Shown: piece after piece, positions 17,711 to 34,755 of the stretch
Position numbering within the stretch: the first letter of the stretch is position 1
How the letters are laid out: each line of letters starts with the position of its first letter
From: Flavobacteriaceae bacterium
GTDB taxonomy: Bacteria > Bacteroidota > Bacteroidia > Flavobacteriales > Flavobacteriaceae
Direction: 5' to 3'
DNA: 64,000 nucleotides
NCBI GenBank assembly: GCA_023257625.1
Contig: JALRBW010000006.1
Location: 1-64,000, forward strand
Notes under the pieces: model-generated
The model's input: the letters and a program-made list of their open reading frames with translations, nothing else
What the model was told of the DNA's origin: nothing
The model's database searches: none
Translations under genes and position numbers: made by a program

Positions 17711-17721
17711 CCTTGTTAAAC

Positions 17722-17771
17722 GAGGAAGGATTTGACTGATTGCAACCTCTATAAAAAACTGCTAAACCAGT
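17722..17771 (+). promoter_or_regulatory. SAM-II-type riboswitch candidate upstream of metK
   Basis: The leader matches the SAM-II (metA-motif) layout in order. P1 5' arm GAGG (17722-17725) is followed by the conserved loop GATTTG (17729-17734), P2 5' arm ACTG (17735-17738) and ATTGCA (17739-17744). P1 3' arm CCTC (17746-17749), an A-rich joining strand, GCTAAA (17761-17766) and P2 3' arm CAGT (17768-17771) complete it. The two helices interleave as an H-type pseudoknot. SAM-II riboswitches are known from Alphaproteobacteria and Bacteroidota upstream of methionine genes, and this one precedes metK and seven further methionine-cycle genes. P1 is only 4 bp with a 3-base bulge before GATTTG, so a SAM-V-like or divergent member is possible. 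Confidence 0.72.
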
Positions 17772-17804
17772 GTTGCTTTGGTAACGCATTGTTAAAATCC
17801 TTCC
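17724..17804 (+). promoter_or_regulatory. alternative helix / expression platform of the met leader
   Basis: GGAAGGATTT (17724-17733) is perfectly complementary to AAATCCTTCC (17795-17804), a 10-bp helix. Its 5' arm contains part of P1 and the conserved GATTT loop of the riboswitch candidate, so this helix and the SAM-bound pseudoknot exclude each other. The 3' arm ends 15 bases before the metK ATG, and no terminator follows. Regulation would therefore more likely act on translation or RNA stability; this is inference. Confidence 0.5.
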
Positions 17805-17819
17805 ATTAAGCAACTTAAA

Positions 17820-19079
17820 ATGTCATATTTTTTTACCTCAGAATCAGTTAGTGAAGGGCATCCAGATAAAATTGCTGATCAAATTAGTGACGCCCTTTTA
17901 GATCATTTTTTAGCCTTTGATCCAGAAAGTAAAGTAGCCTGTGAAACCTTAGTTACCACTGGACAAGTAATTTTAGCTGGTGAAGTTAAAAGTGGGACTT
18001 ACCTCGATGTTCAATCCATAGCACGCGACACAATTAATAAAATTGGATATACCAGAGGAGCTTATCAATTTAGTGGTGATTCTTGTGGTGTCATTTCTCT
18101 TATTCACGAACAATCACAAGATATAAACCGTGGAGTTGATCGTGAAAAAAAAGAAGCTCAAGGGGCAGGAGATCAGGGCATCATGTTTGGTTATGCAACA
18201 ACGGAAACAGAATCATATATTCCTTTGGCACTAGATCTTTCTCATAAAATATTAATTGAATTGGCAGCCTTAAGAAGAGAAAACAAACAGATTTCTTACT
18301 TACGACCCGATGCAAAATCACAAGTTACTATTGAGTATGATGACAAACATCAACCTTTGCGAATTGATACTATAGTAGTTTCAACACAACATGATGATTT
18401 TGATTCAGATGAAAAAGCCATGTTAGCAAAAATAAAAACAGATATAATTTCTGTCTTAATTCCTAGGGTAATCAAAAAATGTACACCTCAAGTTCAGCAA
18501 CTTTTTGGAAATGATATTACGTATCATGTGAATCCTACAGGAAAATTTGTTATTGGTGGTCCCCATGGGGACACTGGTTTAACAGGACGAAAAATTATTG
18601 TTGACACTTATGGCGGAAAAGGAGCCCATGGAGGAGGAGCTTTTAGTGGTAAAGATCCAAGCAAAGTAGATCGAAGTGCTGCATATGCTGCACGCCATAT
18701 GGCAAAAAATCTAGTAGCTGCTGGTGTGGCTAATGAAATTTTAGTACAGTTAAGCTATGCTATTGGGGTGGTAGAGCCAACCTCTATTAATATAAACACT
18801 TTTGGAACAGCAAAAGTAAACCTGTCAGACGAAGCAATAGCACAAATTGCAAAAACCCTATTTGATATGCGTCCTTATGCAATTGAACAGCGGTTAAAGC
18901 TTCGAAACCCAATGTATTTTGAAACGGCTTCTTATGGACATATGGGGCGCGAGCCTCTTACAATAACCAAAACGTTCGAGTCTCCCTATAACGGAAAAGT
19001 TGTGAAGGAAGTAGCACTTTTCACTTGGGAAAATTTAGATTATGTAGAAACCATTAAAAAATCATTTAAATTATCATGA
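17820..19079 (+). CDS. metK: S-adenosylmethionine synthetase
   Basis: MetK makes S-adenosylmethionine from ATP and methionine. The 419-residue protein shows [20 protein letters not shown] at the N-terminus, [15 protein letters not shown], and the active-site region [41 protein letters not shown] is the phosphate-binding loop. All signature elements are intact and length is normal apart from a modest insertion region around [20 protein letters not shown]. It is the first gene after the riboswitch candidate, and its stop overlaps the metY start by 4 bases (ATGA). Placing metK inside the regulated operon means SAM would repress its own synthesis. Confidence 0.97.
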
Positions 19080-29373: not shown

Positions 29374-30522
29374 TTAAAGTATTAAATGACTAAAAAGTAA
29401 AATAGTGAGCATCCCCCAAAGTGTTCCAGTAGCCATGCTAAGAACGGCCAAAATAATTGCGTGAGGCATCCATTTTTTTTCATAGGCAGCAGTAACAGCT
29501 GGAGCCGTAGCAATACCGCCAACATTTGCCATACTGGCAATGGGAACCCAGGCCGAATTTACCCCTAGCGCCTTTGCCACAAAAAGCATAAAGATAAAAT
29601 GACTAATAAGCCATATTATTAAAAATCCTAAAAAAGCAAAATCAAATTGGATCAATTTAATTTTTAATTTTAATCCTAAAACGGCCATAACAATTAGGAT
29701 TAACAAGCTTCCTAACTTAAGAACAAAAGAAAAATTCCATTGCTTGAGTGCATTACTGTAAAATAGTCCTATACCTGACAAAACTAAAATTTGAATTATT
29801 AATTCAGAAATAAAGAAGGAGACACAAGCAACACTTGCTATTAAAAGTAAAAAGACTAATAATGGATTCATTTTCTGTTCTGATTCAGGAGGTATTACTT
29901 CTGGGGGAGAAAAGGCATTTATACCCATAACACGGTTTATGAAATTACTTTTTTTAATGCCTTGAAACATTAATAAAGTCCACAAATTCACCAAAATATT
30001 ATCTACAACCAATAAGGTTAAAAAAACACCTTCAGGACAAGCCACCAACTCCTTTAATACGAGCTGGCTTGTACTTCCGCCAATCCAACTGCCTACAATT
30101 GGGGGAATCCCTTTCCAAAATTCTGCTTCAATCAGAGTATTTTGAACAAAAAAAGAATCTTGCAAAAAGAAAATCAAGACAATTGGGAATAAGGCAATCC
30201 AAAAGGAACCTGAGAGGAATACAAGAATCGGTTTCCATCCAATAGCTCGTAATTGACCTAAAGACATACTACTCATTACTGCAACAATAGCAAAGGGAAT
30301 AAATACGTTTCTACTTATCGTATGTATAGCATCAGTAGAGTAATCTTTTTGTATAATTCCTGAAGCTATAGCTGGTAAAAGATATGCTAATAAAATGGCG
30401 GGAATCCAGTTCAAAAACCGATTGATTAGCCTATGTTGTGAATGCTCAATAAGCCTTATTAATAAAACAGAAAGAAGTACAATTAATCCAGGTACCAGCA
30501 CTACCAATTTTTTAAAATTCAA
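29374..30522 (-). CDS. DUF819 family integral membrane protein
   Basis: The product (382 residues) is hydrophobic throughout, with about eleven membrane segments, and contains the family segments IPPIVGSWIGGSTSQLVLKE and VVDNILVNLWTLLMF. The C-terminal SMANVGGIATAPAVTAAYEKKW contains the Gly-rich loop with an NxGG motif. DUF819 proteins resemble ion/organic-acid transporters but have no settled substrate. The first codon is TTG at 30522; a TATATTTA box at 30525-30532 directly upstream leaves room for a start a few codons further in (TTG 30507 or GTG 30501). It precedes the EamA gene by 9 bases. Confidence 0.82.
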   Translation of the reverse strand: MNFKKLVVLVPGLIVLLSVLLIRLIEHSQHRLINRFLNWIPAILLAYLLPAIASGIIQKDYSTDAIHTISRNVFIPFAIVAVMSSMSLGQLRAIGWKPILVFLSGSFWIALFPIVLIFFLQDSFFVQNTLIEAEFWKGIPPIVGSWIGGSTSQLVLKELVACPEGVFLTLLVVDNILVNLWTLLMFQGIKKSNFINRVMGINAFSPPEVIPPESEQKMNPLLVFLLLIASVACVSFFISELIIQILVLSGIGLFYSNALKQWNFSFVLKLGSLLILIVMAVLGLKLKIKLIQFDFAFLGFLIIWLISHFIFMLFVAKALGVNSAWVPIASMANVGGIATAPAVTAAYEKKWMPHAIILAVLSMATGTLWGMLTILLFSHLIL

Positions 30523-30570
30523 ACTAAATATAGTTTTAATTTATGAGTAATTTGATCTTTTAAAATATCC

Positions 30571-30598
30571 CCTTGTTTCTATTCAAAACAAGGAATAG
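30571..30598. repeat. interleaved inverted repeats upstream of the DUF819 and pheA promoters
   Basis: CCTTGTTT (30571-30578) pairs with AAACAAGG (30586-30593), and CTATTC in its loop (30579-30584) pairs with GAATAG (30593-30598). As RNA this is a pseudoknot topology; as DNA it is a compact double dyad. It lies in the divergent gap, upstream of both promoters rather than inside the pheA leader, so a protein-binding site is the more likely reading. Confidence 0.4.
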
Positions 30599-30641: not shown

Positions 30642-30672
30642 TTTGTTTTTGAAAAAAGCTATACTACTTTTG
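30642..30672 (+). promoter_or_regulatory. aromatic operon promoter (TTTG-N19-TACTTTTG)
   Basis: TTTG (30642-30645), a 19-base spacer and TACTTTTG (30665-30672) match the Bacteroidota promoter exactly. The transcript would start only about 10 bases before the leader peptide ATG at 30689, as expected for a ribosome-controlled attenuator. Confidence 0.7.
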
Positions 30673-30688
30673 TTTGGATTTTAGAAAT

Positions 30689-30757
30689 ATGAATACAACC
30701 TTCTTTTATTACACTAACTTTTATTACTTCTATACAGAAGCAGGAAGGACTTTGTAG
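30689..30757 (+). CDS. Phe/Tyr leader peptide of the pheA operon
   Basis: This 22-codon frame (ATG 30689, TAG 30755-30757) reads MNTTFFYYTNFYYFYTEAGR then TL. Nine of the eleven codons at 30701-30733 are Phe or Tyr (four Phe, five Tyr). Such density next to a terminator and directly before prephenate dehydratase is the hallmark of an attenuation leader, like the E. coli pheA leader. When charged tRNA-Phe or tRNA-Tyr is scarce, ribosomes should stall in this run. The stop codon overlaps the 5' arm of the antiterminator, so an unstalled ribosome would mask it. Confidence 0.85.
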   Translation: MNTTFFYYTNFYYFYTEAGRTL

Positions 30758-30789
30758 TATTAGAATTATATAGATATACAAAAAGTCCT
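30746..30789 (+). promoter_or_regulatory. antiterminator hairpin of the pheA attenuator
   Basis: AGGACTTTGTA (30746-30756) pairs with TACAAAAAGTCCT (30777-30789) as 11 bp with a two-A bulge. The 3' arm is most of the terminator's 5' arm, so the two structures exclude each other. CCTTC (30699-30703), at the first Phe codon, can pair with GAAGG (30744-30748) and would block the antiterminator unless covered by a stalled ribosome. Pairings are exact in the sequence; the mechanism is inferred by analogy with trp/phe attenuators. Confidence 0.75.
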
Positions 30790-30810
30790 GATTTTCGGGA
30801 CTTTTTTTTT
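30780..30810 (+). terminator. attenuator terminator before pheA
   Basis: AAAAAGTCCTGA (30780-30791) and TCGGGACTTTTT (30795-30806) form a 12-bp stem with one G-U pair and a 3-base loop, ending in nine consecutive T. It lies entirely between the leader peptide and the pheA ATG at 30819, so it can only serve as an attenuator of the operon. Confidence 0.9.
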
Positions 30811-30818
30811 GAATTAAA

Positions 30819-31652
30819 ATGGAAACAAAAATTAAAGTAGCCATACAAGGGATTAAAGGTTCTTTTCACCATGTAGTTACTCTTCGATTGTTTGGAGATG
30901 AGGTTGAAATTTATCCATGTGAAACTTTTGATGAAACCGTAAAGGCGGTAGTAGATGAAAAGGTTCCCTTTGCAGTAATGGCATTAGAAAATTCAATTGC
31001 AGGCTCTATTATTCCTAATTATGCACTAATTGATCAAAATAACCTTCGAATTGTTGGTGAATATGGTCTAAGCATACACCATAACTTAATGGCCATACCA
31101 GGGCAGCATATTGAAAATCTTACTGAGGTACGTTCACATCCAATGGCACTCTTGCAATGCAAATCCTTTTTTAAACAATATCCCCATATTCGATTAGTAG
31201 AAGCCGAAGACACAGCTGATGAAGCTAGAATAATTTCAGAAGAAAATTGCCTTGGAAGGGGAGCTATAGCCAGTCAAGAAGCAGCAGATCTTTTTGGATT
31301 ATCAATATTGGCATCTTCTATTCAAACCATAAAAAATAACGTGACCCGTTTTGTTGTAGTACAAAATGAAAAAGCAGTGAAGCCTTCAAAACAGATAAAT
31401 AAAGCTGCTTTAAAATTTATTTTAGATCACAAGCGAGGTAGTTTAGCTGCAGTGCTAAATGTAATGAGTGATTGTCAATTGAATTTAACTAAAATTCAGT
31501 CATTACCCGTAATCGAAACTCCAGGGAAATATTCTTTTTTTGTGGATGTTACTTTTGATGAATTTGAATATTATAAAAAAGCACGTAAACTGATTGAAAT
31601 TATGGCTACACAGTTTAAAATTTTAGGAGAATATAATCAACATCTAAGATGA
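30819..31652 (+). CDS. pheA: prephenate dehydratase
   Basis: PheA converts prephenate to phenylpyruvate, the last dedicated step before transamination to phenylalanine. The 277-residue protein shows KVAIQGIKGSFHHVVTLRLF, FAVMALENSIAGSIIPNY and EVRSHPMALLQCKSFF, with GAIASQEAADLFGL and the catalytic NNVTRFVV. A C-terminal ACT domain follows, with KRGSLAAVLNVMSDCQLNLTKIQSLP (two adjoining motifs), so feedback by phenylalanine is likely. No chorismate mutase domain is attached; that activity is supplied by the fusion at 33673. It begins 9 bases after the attenuator and overlaps the next gene by 4 bases. Confidence 0.96.
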   Translation: METKIKVAIQGIKGSFHHVVTLRLFGDEVEIYPCETFDETVKAVVDEKVPFAVMALENSIAGSIIPNYALIDQNNLRIVGEYGLSIHHNLMAIPGQHIENLTEVRSHPMALLQCKSFFKQYPHIRLVEAEDTADEARIISEENCLGRGAIASQEAADLFGLSILASSIQTIKNNVTRFVVVQNEKAVKPSKQINKAALKFILDHKRGSLAAVLNVMSDCQLNLTKIQSLPVIETPGKYSFFVDVTFDEFEYYKKARKLIEIMATQFKILGEYNQHLR

Positions 31653-32797
31653 AAATAGCACACCGATTACAAAGTGTTCAAGAATACTATTTTTCACGAA
31701 AGCTGAGAGAAGTGGCTAGTTTGATTCAAGCGGGACACCCGATTATAAACATGGGAATAGGGAGTCCAGATTTACCCCCGCATCCTTCTGTTATTGAGGC
31801 TTTACACAATGCAACATCACATCCCAAAGCCCATATGTATCAGAGTTATCAGGGACTACTAGAGTTACGTCAAGCTATGGCAGATTTCTATCATTCACAT
31901 TATGAGGTTAATCTTGAGCCCCAATCCGAAATTCTACCTTTAATGGGATCTAAAGAAGGGATTATGCATATTTCAATGGCATTTTTAAATCCTGGAGATC
32001 AAGTGCTTGTCCCTAATCCAGGGTATCCAACCTATGCTTCAGTTACTCGATTACTTGAAGCGGAACCTGTTTTTTACGATTTGAAAGAAAGCCAAAATTG
32101 GCAACCCGATTTTACTGCTTTAGACGCCTTAGACACATCTAAAGTTAAATTAATGTGGATCAATTATCCGCACATGCCTACAGGAACTGAAGCACTTTCA
32201 TTAACTTTTGATCGATTAATAGAGTGGGCTAAGCAACGGTCTATTTTACTAGTAAATGACAATCCTTATAGTTTTGTTTTAACTGAAAAACCAAAGAGTT
32301 TATTGTCACGTCCTGGGGCTTTAGAAGTATCATTGGAGTTGAATTCATTGAGCAAATCATCAAATTTAGCAGGTTGGCGAGTGGGCATGTTGTGTGGGAA
32401 AGAAACCTTTTTGCAATCTGTTTTGAAGGTCAAAAGCAATATGGACTCGGGCATGTTTTTCGGAATTCAAAAAGGAGCAATTGCAGCTTTAAAGGCCTCA
32501 ACAGATTGGTATACAAATTTGAACACAATCTACTCTATACGCAGAAAAGCAGTAGAAAAATTGGCAAAGTCACTAGGAGCTACCTATAATCCAAAACAAG
32601 TGGGATTGTTTTTATGGGCTAGGTTACCACAAACTTCTAATGATGCAGAAACCTTCATTGACAAGCTTTTGCATGAAAAACATCTTTTTATTACACCAGG
32701 TACTATTTTTGGAAGTCAAGGTGAAGGATACATTCGTTTTTCTTTATGTGTGCCAGAAGAAACAATTTTGGAGGCAATTAAAAGAATTGAATCATGA
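31649..32797 (+). CDS. class I/II aminotransferase, probably aromatic amino acid/prephenate
   Basis: Fold-type I aminotransferase of 382 residues: NMGIGSPDLPPHPSVIEAL, YQSYQGLLELRQAMADFY, LVPNPGYPTYASV, INYPHMPTGT, and the PLP Lys in LNSLSKSSNLAGWRVGM. The C-terminal YIRFSLCVPEETILEA carries the substrate-carboxylate Arg. Its place between pheA and tyrA, with 4-base overlaps to both, indicates the final transamination to phenylalanine and tyrosine. A use of prephenate to form arogenate cannot be excluded. Confidence 0.88.
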   Translation: MKIAHRLQSVQEYYFSRKLREVASLIQAGHPIINMGIGSPDLPPHPSVIEALHNATSHPKAHMYQSYQGLLELRQAMADFYHSHYEVNLEPQSEILPLMGSKEGIMHISMAFLNPGDQVLVPNPGYPTYASVTRLLEAEPVFYDLKESQNWQPDFTALDALDTSKVKLMWINYPHMPTGTEALSLTFDRLIEWAKQRSILLVNDNPYSFVLTEKPKSLLSRPGALEVSLELNSLSKSSNLAGWRVGMLCGKETFLQSVLKVKSNMDSGMFFGIQKGAIAALKASTDWYTNLNTIYSIRRKAVEKLAKSLGATYNPKQVGLFLWARLPQTSNDAETFIDKLLHEKHLFITPGTIFGSQGEGYIRFSLCVPEETILEAIKRIES

Positions 32798-33666
32798 ATA
32801 TAGGAATAATTGGTTTAGGATTAATTGGCGGATCAATGGCTTTGGCATCAAAAAAATATACTGTTGGGTGTCGTTGTTATGGACGCGATATAAATCCAAC
32901 TCATATAAAGCAAGCAATAGCTTTAGGAATAATTGAGGAAGAATTAACAGATGTTAATTTACCTCACATGGATGTGGTCATACTTGCCGTTCCTGTAGAT
33001 ATTGCTATAGATTTAGCAGTACCACTTCTTGATATCATAAATGATAATGCACTATTGATAGATGTTGGGTCAACTAAAGGTAGTATTTGTGAACGTGTTG
33101 CTTTACATCCAAAACGAAATCAATTTTTGGCTACTCACCCTATAGCAGGTACTGAGTTTTCAGGACCTTCAGCAGCTTATGCGGAGTTGTTTTTGGGGCA
33201 AACACAAATTTTATGCGAAACCTCTTTATCGCGTCCAGATTTAATGGAATGGGCAATACAATGGTTCAGATCTATGTCTATGCGAATTAAAGAAATGGAT
33301 CCAAAAGAACATGATCAACATATAGCCTATGTTTCACACCTTTCGCACGTGTCATCTTTTATGTTAGGAAAAACCGTTATGGAAAAAGAAAAAGACGAAC
33401 ATGCTATTTTTGATATGGCAGGCAGCGGATTTGCCTCTACCGTTCGTCTAGCAAAAAGTTCACCCTCTATGTGGACTCCTATTTTTAAACAAAACCGAGA
33501 AAATTTATTGGAAGTACTTACGGAATATATTGAAAACCTGAGTGCTTTTAAAAATGACTTAGAACAACATGACTATAATAAGTTATACCAAACCATGCTA
33601 GAAACTAATGCTATAAGGGCCATTCTAGCAGGTATTAATCAAAATAATACAAAAAATAATAATTAA
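32794..33666 (+). CDS. tyrA: prephenate dehydrogenase
   Basis: TyrA oxidatively decarboxylates prephenate to 4-hydroxyphenylpyruvate. The Rossmann motif GIIGLGLIGGSMALA is at residues 3-17, followed by LLIDVGSTKGSI, the catalytic-His segment FLATHPIAGTEFSGPSAA, and MDPKEHDQHIAYVSHLSHV in the helical dimerisation domain. At 290 residues there is no ACT or chorismate mutase domain. It is translationally coupled to the aminotransferase by a 4-base overlap. Confidence 0.95.
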   Translation: MNIGIIGLGLIGGSMALASKKYTVGCRCYGRDINPTHIKQAIALGIIEEELTDVNLPHMDVVILAVPVDIAIDLAVPLLDIINDNALLIDVGSTKGSICERVALHPKRNQFLATHPIAGTEFSGPSAAYAELFLGQTQILCETSLSRPDLMEWAIQWFRSMSMRIKEMDPKEHDQHIAYVSHLSHVSSFMLGKTVMEKEKDEHAIFDMAGSGFASTVRLAKSSPSMWTPIFKQNRENLLEVLTEYIENLSAFKNDLEQHDYNKLYQTMLETNAIRAILAGINQNNTKNNN

Positions 33667-33672
33667 GAACTT

Positions 33673-34755
33673 ATGGAAAATAAAAAAGAAATGCGCCAAT
33701 GGCTTGACAATTTTGGATTAGATCATCCTTTAGTAATTGCTGGACCCTGTAGCGCAGAAACAGAAGATCAAGTGTTAAAAATTGCACATGAATTAAAAGA
33801 TACAGACGTCACTGTATATCGAGCGGGTATTTGGAAACCAAGAACCCGTCCAGGCATGTTTGAAGGGGTTGGAGCAATAGGTTTAGGATGGCTTAAAAAA
33901 GTAAAAGAACAAACAGGTTTACTGACAGCAACAGAAGTAGCAAATAAAGACCATGTTCAATTAGCTTTAGAAAATGATGTGGATATATTATGGATTGGAG
34001 CTCGTTCTACAGTAAGTCCTTTCATTATGCAAGAAATTGCCGATGCATTAGAAGGAACAGATAAAATAGTTTTGGTAAAAAACCCAGTAAATCCAGATTT
34101 GGCTTTATGGCTTGGTGGGGTTGAACGTTTATATACAGCAAATATTAAAAAACTAGGTCTAATTCATAGAGGATTTTCAACTTATGAAAAATCAAAATAT
34201 CGAAACATACCCGAATGGCAGATAGCTATTGAAGTAAAAAATAAATTTCCAGATCTCCCTATGATCTGTGACCCTTCTCATATTGGAGGAAAGCGAGATT
34301 TAATTTTTGACATCTCTCAATCTGCATTAGATTTAAATTTTGATGGATTAATGATTGAAACCCATTGGGATCCTGATAATGCATGGAGTGATGCAGCTCA
34401 GCAAGTAACACCTAAACGTTTAATTGAAATTATGCGTGATTTAAAAGTACGTAAAATTACCACTGAAGAGCAGGCTTATCAAAATGAGTTAAGTGTGCTT
34501 CGATCTCAAATTGATGTCGCAGACCAAAATCTTTTGGATGTTTTAGGGAAAAGAATGAAAGTAGCCGAACAAATTGGCGCTCTTAAAAGAGCAAACAATG
34601 TAGCGGTTCTTCAAAATAAACGTTGGAACGAAATTTTAGGGAGTATGATTTTGGAAGGTCAAGACAGAGGACTTTCTGAAGAATTTATTTTACGAGTTTT
34701 CAAAGCTATTCACCAAGAGTCAATCAACAAACAAGAGAAAATTTTAAAAGCGTAA
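33673..34755 (+). CDS. bifunctional DAHP synthase / chorismate mutase
   Basis: The first about 260 residues are a type I-beta DAHP synthase, condensing PEP and erythrose-4-phosphate: VIAGPCSAETEDQVLKIA, YRAGIWKPRTRPGMFEGVG, VLVKNPVNPDLALWLGG, and MICDPSHIGGKRD. Residues about 270-360 form an AroQ chorismate mutase: LRSQIDVADQNLLDVLGKRM, VAEQIGALKRANNVAVLQ and ILRVFKAIHQESI. This domain order, with a C-terminal mutase, is known in Bacteroidota; the mutase can sense chorismate or prephenate and inhibit the synthase. It therefore provides both entry to the shikimate pathway and the chorismate-to-prephenate step used by pheA and tyrA in the same operon. Confidence 0.94.
   Translation: MENKKEMRQWLDNFGLDHPLVIAGPCSAETEDQVLKIAHELKDTDVTVYRAGIWKPRTRPGMFEGVGAIGLGWLKKVKEQTGLLTATEVANKDHVQLALENDVDILWIGARSTVSPFIMQEIADALEGTDKIVLVKNPVNPDLALWLGGVERLYTANIKKLGLIHRGFSTYEKSKYRNIPEWQIAIEVKNKFPDLPMICDPSHIGGKRDLIFDISQSALDLNFDGLMIETHWDPDNAWSDAAQQVTPKRLIEIMRDLKVRKITTEEQAYQNELSVLRSQIDVADQNLLDVLGKRMKVAEQIGALKRANNVAVLQNKRWNEILGSMILEGQDRGLSEEFILRVFKAIHQESINKQEKILKA

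Follow-up and report, generated by a model that had tools for sequence, protein, structure and literature searches.

A candidate Phe/Tyr leader-peptide attenuator ahead of a flavobacterial pheA operon, with competing RNA arms that covary across the family

Positioned immediately 5' of the pheA operon of a marine flavobacterium is a short locus with the look of an attenuator, and the question it raises is how this operon is controlled and by which amino acids. The DNA analyzed, referred to here as the window, is a stretch of 64,000 nucleotides. On the basis of the anatomy of the locus, its conservation, the covariation of its arms, its geometry and the content of the operon, the leader is very probably a ribosome-mediated transcription attenuator.

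The operon lies on the plus strand and begins with pheA, encoding prephenate dehydratase (30819-31652; PF00800 above cut-off), followed by a class I/II aminotransferase (31649-32797; PF00155), tyrA, encoding prephenate dehydrogenase (32794-33666; NF006307 above cut-off), and a DAHP synthase - chorismate mutase fusion (33673-34755; PF00793 and PF01817). Judging from these profile matches, the leader precedes its cognate biosynthetic operon. The upstream gene (29374-30522) is divergent from the operon, and the attenuator hairpin is therefore not its terminator. Two terminator-like sites were found in 901 nt, versus 0.3 expected: that of the attenuator and a minus-strand hairpin at 30569-30595. 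The latter, just 5' of the divergent gene (DUF819), might have arisen by chance.

All of the elements of the leader are on the plus strand. The promoter is of the Bacteroidota type, with a -33 element, TTTG, at 30642-30645 and, 19 nt after it, a -7 element, TACTTTTG, at 30665-30672. The latter fits TAnnTTTG, the -7 consensus reported for Flavobacterium psychrophilum at -12 to -5 (PMC9723704). From this placement transcription would start near 30677. The promoter is absent from the list produced by an E. coli-type sigma-70 scan of the locus, as expected because it is of another type. The leader peptide frame, MNTTFFYYTNFYYFYTEAGRTL, is 22 codons long and runs from the ATG at 30689 to the TAG at 30755-30757. 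Its control codons, nine Phe/Tyr in eleven (residues 5-15, 30701-30733), constitute region I, which also pairs with region II. The 5' arm of the antiterminator, region II, is AGGACTTT at 30746-30753, as assigned from inverted repeats, conservation and covariation. Region III, at 30780-30791, is the shared arm: it is the 5' arm of the terminator, and its segment 30782-30789 pairs with region II. Inverted repeats and a terminator scan place region IV, the terminator 3' arm, at 30795-30806; the same scan and the sequence give a tract of nine T at 30802-30810. The terminator stem contains 12 pairs, including one G-U, closed by a 3-nt loop. A consensus promoter, a 22-codon leader with nine Phe/Tyr codons in eleven and a 12-bp terminator with nine T had all been described in the initial annotation, and each is borne out by direct reading. 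Two details need correction. The antiterminator does share an arm with the terminator, but rather than 11 bp it has 8 perfect pairs, and to reach 11 a 2-nt bulge must be bridged to gain three more. The stop codon, said to lie on the 5' arm of the antiterminator, falls right where that arm ends on its 3' side. Compared with 200 shuffles, the leader folds better in every case (z -4.4). An Rfam scan of the window gave nothing at the gathering threshold for the attenuator, in a collection that includes leader, T-box and Flavo-1 models. The only qualifying match was a SAM-II riboswitch (72 bits, 17716-17775) 5' of metK and an O-acetylhomoserine sulfhydrylase gene, with a metX-like gene, below its cut-off, also downstream.

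Conservation was examined in 149 genomes of the family, approximately one per genus, 130 of which yielded PheA; the 130 upstream regions comprise those of 129 relatives and the window. An alignment of pheA upstream regions across the family had been proposed in the initial annotation, with attention to compensatory changes, and both expectations held: leader and terminator are kept in 125/130, the U-tailed hairpins being counted without a shuffle control, and the shared arm covaries with both of its partners. Leader and terminator are absent from five family members (G013, G080, G035, G023 and G127). A frame with at least six aromatic residues per eleven is present in 126/130 regions. Six Phe/Tyr in eleven is not rare, being reached by 464 of 2600 dinucleotide shuffles, but the excess becomes steep with stringency: at least seven in 121/130 regions versus 90/2600 shuffles, at least eight in 87/130 versus 13/2600, and nine in 29/130 versus 0/2600. 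On the reverse strand, seven in eleven was found in 2/130 regions and eight in 0/130. The loci have common ancestry, and counts across them are thus not independent. The pattern is genuine and well outside what chance would yield. Searched as TANNTTWG in the 75 nt preceding the leader, the -7 motif occurs in 115/123 cases versus 297/2460 mononucleotide shuffles; of those 115 leaders, 87 carry TTG 20-27 nt upstream of the box, a count with no control. The start codon is ATG in 123 of the 124 called leaders. Leader lengths range from 18 to 34 codons, and sequence varies while aromatic content is kept. One locus, L145, whose leader is visible but was miscalled by the script, was left out of the 124-locus covariation and geometry analyses; L145 and L159, the latter cut by a contig end, were left out of the 123-leader promoter and Trp counts. 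L067 was kept even though its aligned PheA start shows a stop, and L365 was left out of the scanned loci.

Within the genus of the window, leader and terminator were seen by eye in 15 of 15 loci. A covariance model matched 33/37 genomes of the genus, the window included, and of the four without a match three also gave no PheA. In the window genome the attenuator site was the only match at E values up to 0.01, under strict filters by which 64 of 2826 candidates were scored.

The competing arms change together. Across 124 loci region III falls into the classes GTCTC (69), GTCCC (26), GTCCT (15) and others (14), and region II follows. When each region II was scored against its own region III, the sum was 2211.5, whereas 2000 permutations of partners gave 1800 (sd 29) and never more than 1887.5. 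Tested one locus at a time against shuffles, 94/125 antiterminators pass at the 5% level and 48 exceed all 100 shuffles. In an alignment of the 124 sequences anchored at the last aromatic codon, the best core antiterminator pair, at window positions 30747/30788, is A-T in 66 loci, G-C in 53 and G-T in 5. The same region III column partners with region IV as C-G in 53, T-A in 37 and T-G in 34. Both partners change with the region III column, which thus tracks two partners at once. In the antiterminator, near-universal pairing is limited to five core pairs (standard in 116-124 of 124); of the flanking pairs, the one immediately outward is standard in 94/124 loci and the one immediately inward in roughly half of them. 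A smaller alignment, consisting of the window and a random 44 of 122 sequences, was also scored. For the terminator, 98.8% of its cells pair, all 500 shuffles are exceeded on five of five measures, and 7/9 pairs are changed on both sides, a number equaled by 0/500 shuffles. For the antiterminator, 71.6% of cells pair, and pairing and covariation score exceed all shuffles and slid versions, but its doubly changed pairs were matched by 40/500 shuffles and exceeded by one slid version. This weakness is apparently due to rows that are out of register. The argument for the antiterminator rests on the anchored 124-locus alignment and on the alignment-free permutation. The locus thus displays a mutually exclusive antiterminator (II:III) and terminator (III:IV) with a common arm, a feature that is weaker on the 45 sequences.

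The placement of region II relative to the reading frame is constrained as well. Its core starts 12-18 nt past the first nucleotide of the last aromatic codon in 112/124 loci, and exactly at 13 or 14 nt in 97/124. A ribosome with a codon in its A site extends approximately 12 nt further downstream. Region II would accordingly begin just past the leading edge of a ribosome stalled at the last aromatic codon. The core also lies within -18 to +12 of the stop codon in 119/124 loci, and in these a ribosome with the stop codon in its A site would cover region II. On geometry, with an assumed footprint size, a stalled ribosome would leave region II free in 112/124 loci and a ribosome at the stop codon would cover it in 119/124. 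Regions I and II pair with a probability above 0.5 in 113/124 loci versus 310/620 shuffled heads, a modest excess. The value for the window is 0.67, indicative of a protector hairpin, and thus the ribosome-free state should favor termination as well. In a thermodynamic comparison, the mean free energies of the terminator and the antiterminator segment are about equal (-13.3 and -13.7 kcal/mol, respectively). Such near-equal stability is what a switch requires.

Taken together, these features suggest a mechanism in which termination itself, ribosome stalling, the coupling of ribosome to polymerase and the response to each amino acid are all predicted steps. RNA polymerase would initiate near 30677, and a ribosome would start on the leader without Shine-Dalgarno pairing. 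When charged Phe- or Tyr-tRNA is scarce (in many relatives perhaps Trp-tRNA too), the ribosome would stall in the aromatic run with its leading edge halted just short of region II. Regions II and III could then pair, no terminator would form, and transcription would proceed through pheA, tyrA and the DAHP synthase gene. With adequate charging, the ribosome would reach the stop codon and cover region II, allowing III and IV to form the terminator, with transcription ending near 30810. If the leader were not translated at all, I:II pairing would again favor termination.

Which amino acids the leader senses is less clear-cut. The initial annotation argued that Phe/Tyr control fits an operon carrying pheA and tyrA; that is supported, and it is amended here to a perhaps wider control, given that Trp is found in two of every three leaders and that, in most of 80 genomes checked, no DAHP synthase seems to be encoded outside the operon. 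An in-frame TGG at or before the last aromatic codon is present in 82/123 leaders, versus 402/2974 stop-free shuffles, those with an in-frame stop having been left out. The leaders contain 83 TGG triplets in the reading frame, as compared with 0 and 3 in the two alternative frames. Their distance upstream of the last aromatic codon varies, being 4-5 or 9-10 codons in 72/82. The leader may therefore gauge all three aromatics, or its Trp codons may be no sensors at all, with control restricted to Phe and Tyr, and TGG retained for RNA pairing or by descent. The latter is a reading to which we assign lesser but real weight. In its favor, the window leader has no Trp codon, 42/124 leaders are without Trp, the 15 same-genus leaders inspected by eye lack it except for L343, in which TGG is downstream of the aromatic run, and trpE has a separate Trp leader. 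Retention for pairing or by descent fits less well with the bias toward a single frame, the excess over shuffles and the differing distances of TGG from the last aromatic codon.

The supply of DAHP synthase bears on the same choice. In the window genome, which is 91% complete, the fusion gene of the pheA operon is the sole PF00793 match, and no PF01474 match was found. PF00793 was also searched in a sample of 80 genomes, namely all 42 with a Trp-less leader and a random 38 of the 83 with a Trp-containing one. One match was found in 7 genomes, two in 69 and three in 4. Among the matches listed, the single match is on the pheA contig, within ∼2.9 kb downstream of the start of pheA, in 7/7 genomes (that of the window included). 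Of the PF00793 matches of ∼275-300 residues that were scanned, those in G032, G126, G061 and G081 are KdsA, the Pfam family being common to both enzymes; that in G047 proved to be a genuine second DAHP synthase. The class II enzyme was found in 0/80 genomes. In most of the 80 genomes the only DAHP synthase thus appears to be that of the pheA operon. All of the aromatic amino acids in these genomes appear to depend on the operon, and Trp codons therefore have a reason to be there, which falls short of proving sensing. A second DAHP synthase as the explanation for the Trp codons was considered and set aside: the class II enzyme is lacking in the 80 genomes, and PF00793 counts are mostly alike with and without Trp. 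The number of DAHP synthases therefore does not account for the Trp codons, and the same equality of counts is a further point for their not being sensors.

The attenuation mechanism itself must be weighed against readings in which the ribosome does not time termination. Transcription might outrun translation, in which case the leader would act not on termination but afterwards, by affecting how the mRNA is translated or how stable it is. This we regard as improbable. Coupling is unproven beyond a few model species and, according to a review, not yet known for other bacteria (PMC10931766), yet the U-tailed hairpin recurs in 125/130 regions with covarying arms, an arrangement that would be hard to explain if control were purely post-transcriptional. 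Marginally less probable again is a ribosome-independent switch, in which a protein or ligand on the leader RNA controls the terminator and the frame is incidental. Many operons are indeed controlled by protein or ligand binding to leader RNA, and the locus is a conserved, structured RNA ahead of a biosynthetic operon. An incidental frame, however, would hardly keep its aromatic content while sequence and length (18-34 codons) vary, nor would region II be tied within a few nucleotides to the last aromatic codon, and the locus has no Rfam family match at gathering. That the leader is instead a functional small aromatic-rich protein is very improbable indeed, for despite the conserved short frame, its nearly invariant ATG and its promoter motif, what is kept is mainly aromatic content and the distance to region II, whereas order, length and tail vary. 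Ribosome-mediated attenuation thus seems about as certain as anatomy and evolution, read from sequence, permit.

By eye, the leader was seen in, among others, Flavobacterium gelidilacus, Winogradskyella ludwigii, Zhouia amylolytica, Tamlana haliotis and one Maribacter; 26 of the 80 named loci were inspected in this manner. It extends outside the family as well. In other families of the class, leader and terminator are present in 20/23 pheA upstream regions, and the three regions without a leader all belong to one genus (G222, G255 and G336). In G222 and G255 the operon is rearranged, with DAHP synthase first instead of pheA, and the model locates an aromatic leader immediately ahead of the DAHP synthase gene, at a distance of ∼3.5-3.7 kb upstream from pheA. 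G336 gave no match in the class-wide model search. In five further families of the order that yielded PheA, inspection by eye showed a clear leader in two (L355 and L357), an ambiguous one in another (L358) and none in the remaining two. Most regions from other classes of the phylum are without the attenuator: leader and terminator were found in 4/16 regions; a second set, to which no terminator scan was applied, gave 0/14, with two 6/11 frames ending 316 and 446 nt before pheA. The class-wide model search returned matches in 20/149 genomes. Of 13 matched loci inspected, L398, L406 and L408 are without an aromatic frame of 6/11, and the matches L400 and L411 resemble the ends of ordinary coding frames. 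The search is known both to miss leaders and to return false matches, and its tally was therefore not used for spread. Two adjacent leader-model matches in one genome (G395:C25:18791-18896 and 18931-19033) possibly represent a duplicated attenuator.

Other leader candidates were encountered. In the genome of the window (G000), a His-containing frame, MKFKTTHQHHFYSDSNEL, and a terminator precede hisG on C72 (L299), with a region partly complementary to the 5' arm of that terminator; similar frames were seen by eye in genomes of the same genus. Before trpE, on C47 (L325), there is a Trp leader frame, MNRTVIFLNFWWNTENF, with a terminator. By eye, the 5' arm of this terminator is not the partner of a TCGTG that follows the leader; that sequence could instead pair with the loop and the 3' arm. 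The Phe/Tyr model also found a frame, MIFNTSIITTIIITTGINQRG, with a terminator (L412, G226:C2), similar in kind to the E. coli thr leader; the downstream gene is presumably an aspartate kinase, to judge from the motif at its start. In G364, an Ile/Leu/Val-rich frame, MRVNNVILSIIILLCQL, followed by a U-tailed hairpin precedes ilvD (L444) and is possibly a branched-chain leader. No clear ilvD leaders were found in the upstream regions of the window's own genus.

At its broadest, the reading would be that a single peptide combines information on how fully the tRNAs for Phe, Tyr and Trp are charged and thereby controls the enzyme with which the shikimate pathway begins, and that the class-wide spread, paralleled by the His, Trp and Thr/Ile leaders, reflects a tight, promoter-proximal coupling of transcription and translation that is ancestral in the class. 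We consider this to have an even chance of being correct. If true, the sensing of three aromatics would take place in a phylum without Shine-Dalgarno pairing. According to a review, transcription-translation coupling is known for few species, and Bacteroidota initiate without Shine-Dalgarno pairing (PMC10931766). For a ribosome-timed attenuator kept family-wide to work, the ribosome must already control how the RNA folds in its first ∼130 nt; coupling thus becomes a question for reporter assays, and through the attenuator it can be tested directly in such a phylum.

The attenuator is not wholly new, because a transcriptome study of F. psychrophilum published in 2021 reported clues for leader-peptide attenuation upstream of amino-acid operons together with conserved 5' elements of pheA and hisG, present in other genera and without Rfam hits (PMC9723704). 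The statement in the initial annotation that a dual Phe/Tyr leader is little described in this lineage was thus right only in part. The pheA element of that study, structured and present in other Flavobacteriaceae, is very likely identical to the element of the window; the section devoted to it does not name the codons, arms and covariation that are given here. Among papers, mainly openly licensed, on leader-peptide attenuation in the phylum or family, it was the sole direct precedent found. Elsewhere, leader-like frames in Bacteroides are mentioned in PMC7366714, a 2010 comparative survey of attenuation that may cover Bacteroidota is cited in PMC4833913, and pheA, thr and ilvGMEDA are listed among known attenuators in PMC1183508. 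The logic of the attenuator is that of the textbook and was foreshadowed in print. What is added is the wide spread, the three-way covariation, the footprint geometry and the possible sensing of three aromatics.

The closest known system is the pheA attenuator of E. coli and Salmonella, which acts at the same step, prephenate dehydratase, and combines leader codons, an antiterminator and a terminator according to the same principle. The E. coli leader contains Phe codons only and controls pheA alone. Here, in contrast, Phe, Tyr and often Trp codons precede an operon that includes tyrA and DAHP synthase, and the leader belongs to a phylum without Shine-Dalgarno pairing (PMC10931766). No aromatic multi-amino-acid counterpart was found in the literature, where the three aromatics were looked for jointly only in a Bacteroid context. 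The nearest parallels are the thr and ilvGMEDA leaders of E. coli, in which one leader senses several amino acids, as the flavobacterial leader probably does for a different set of amino acids and in a different lineage.
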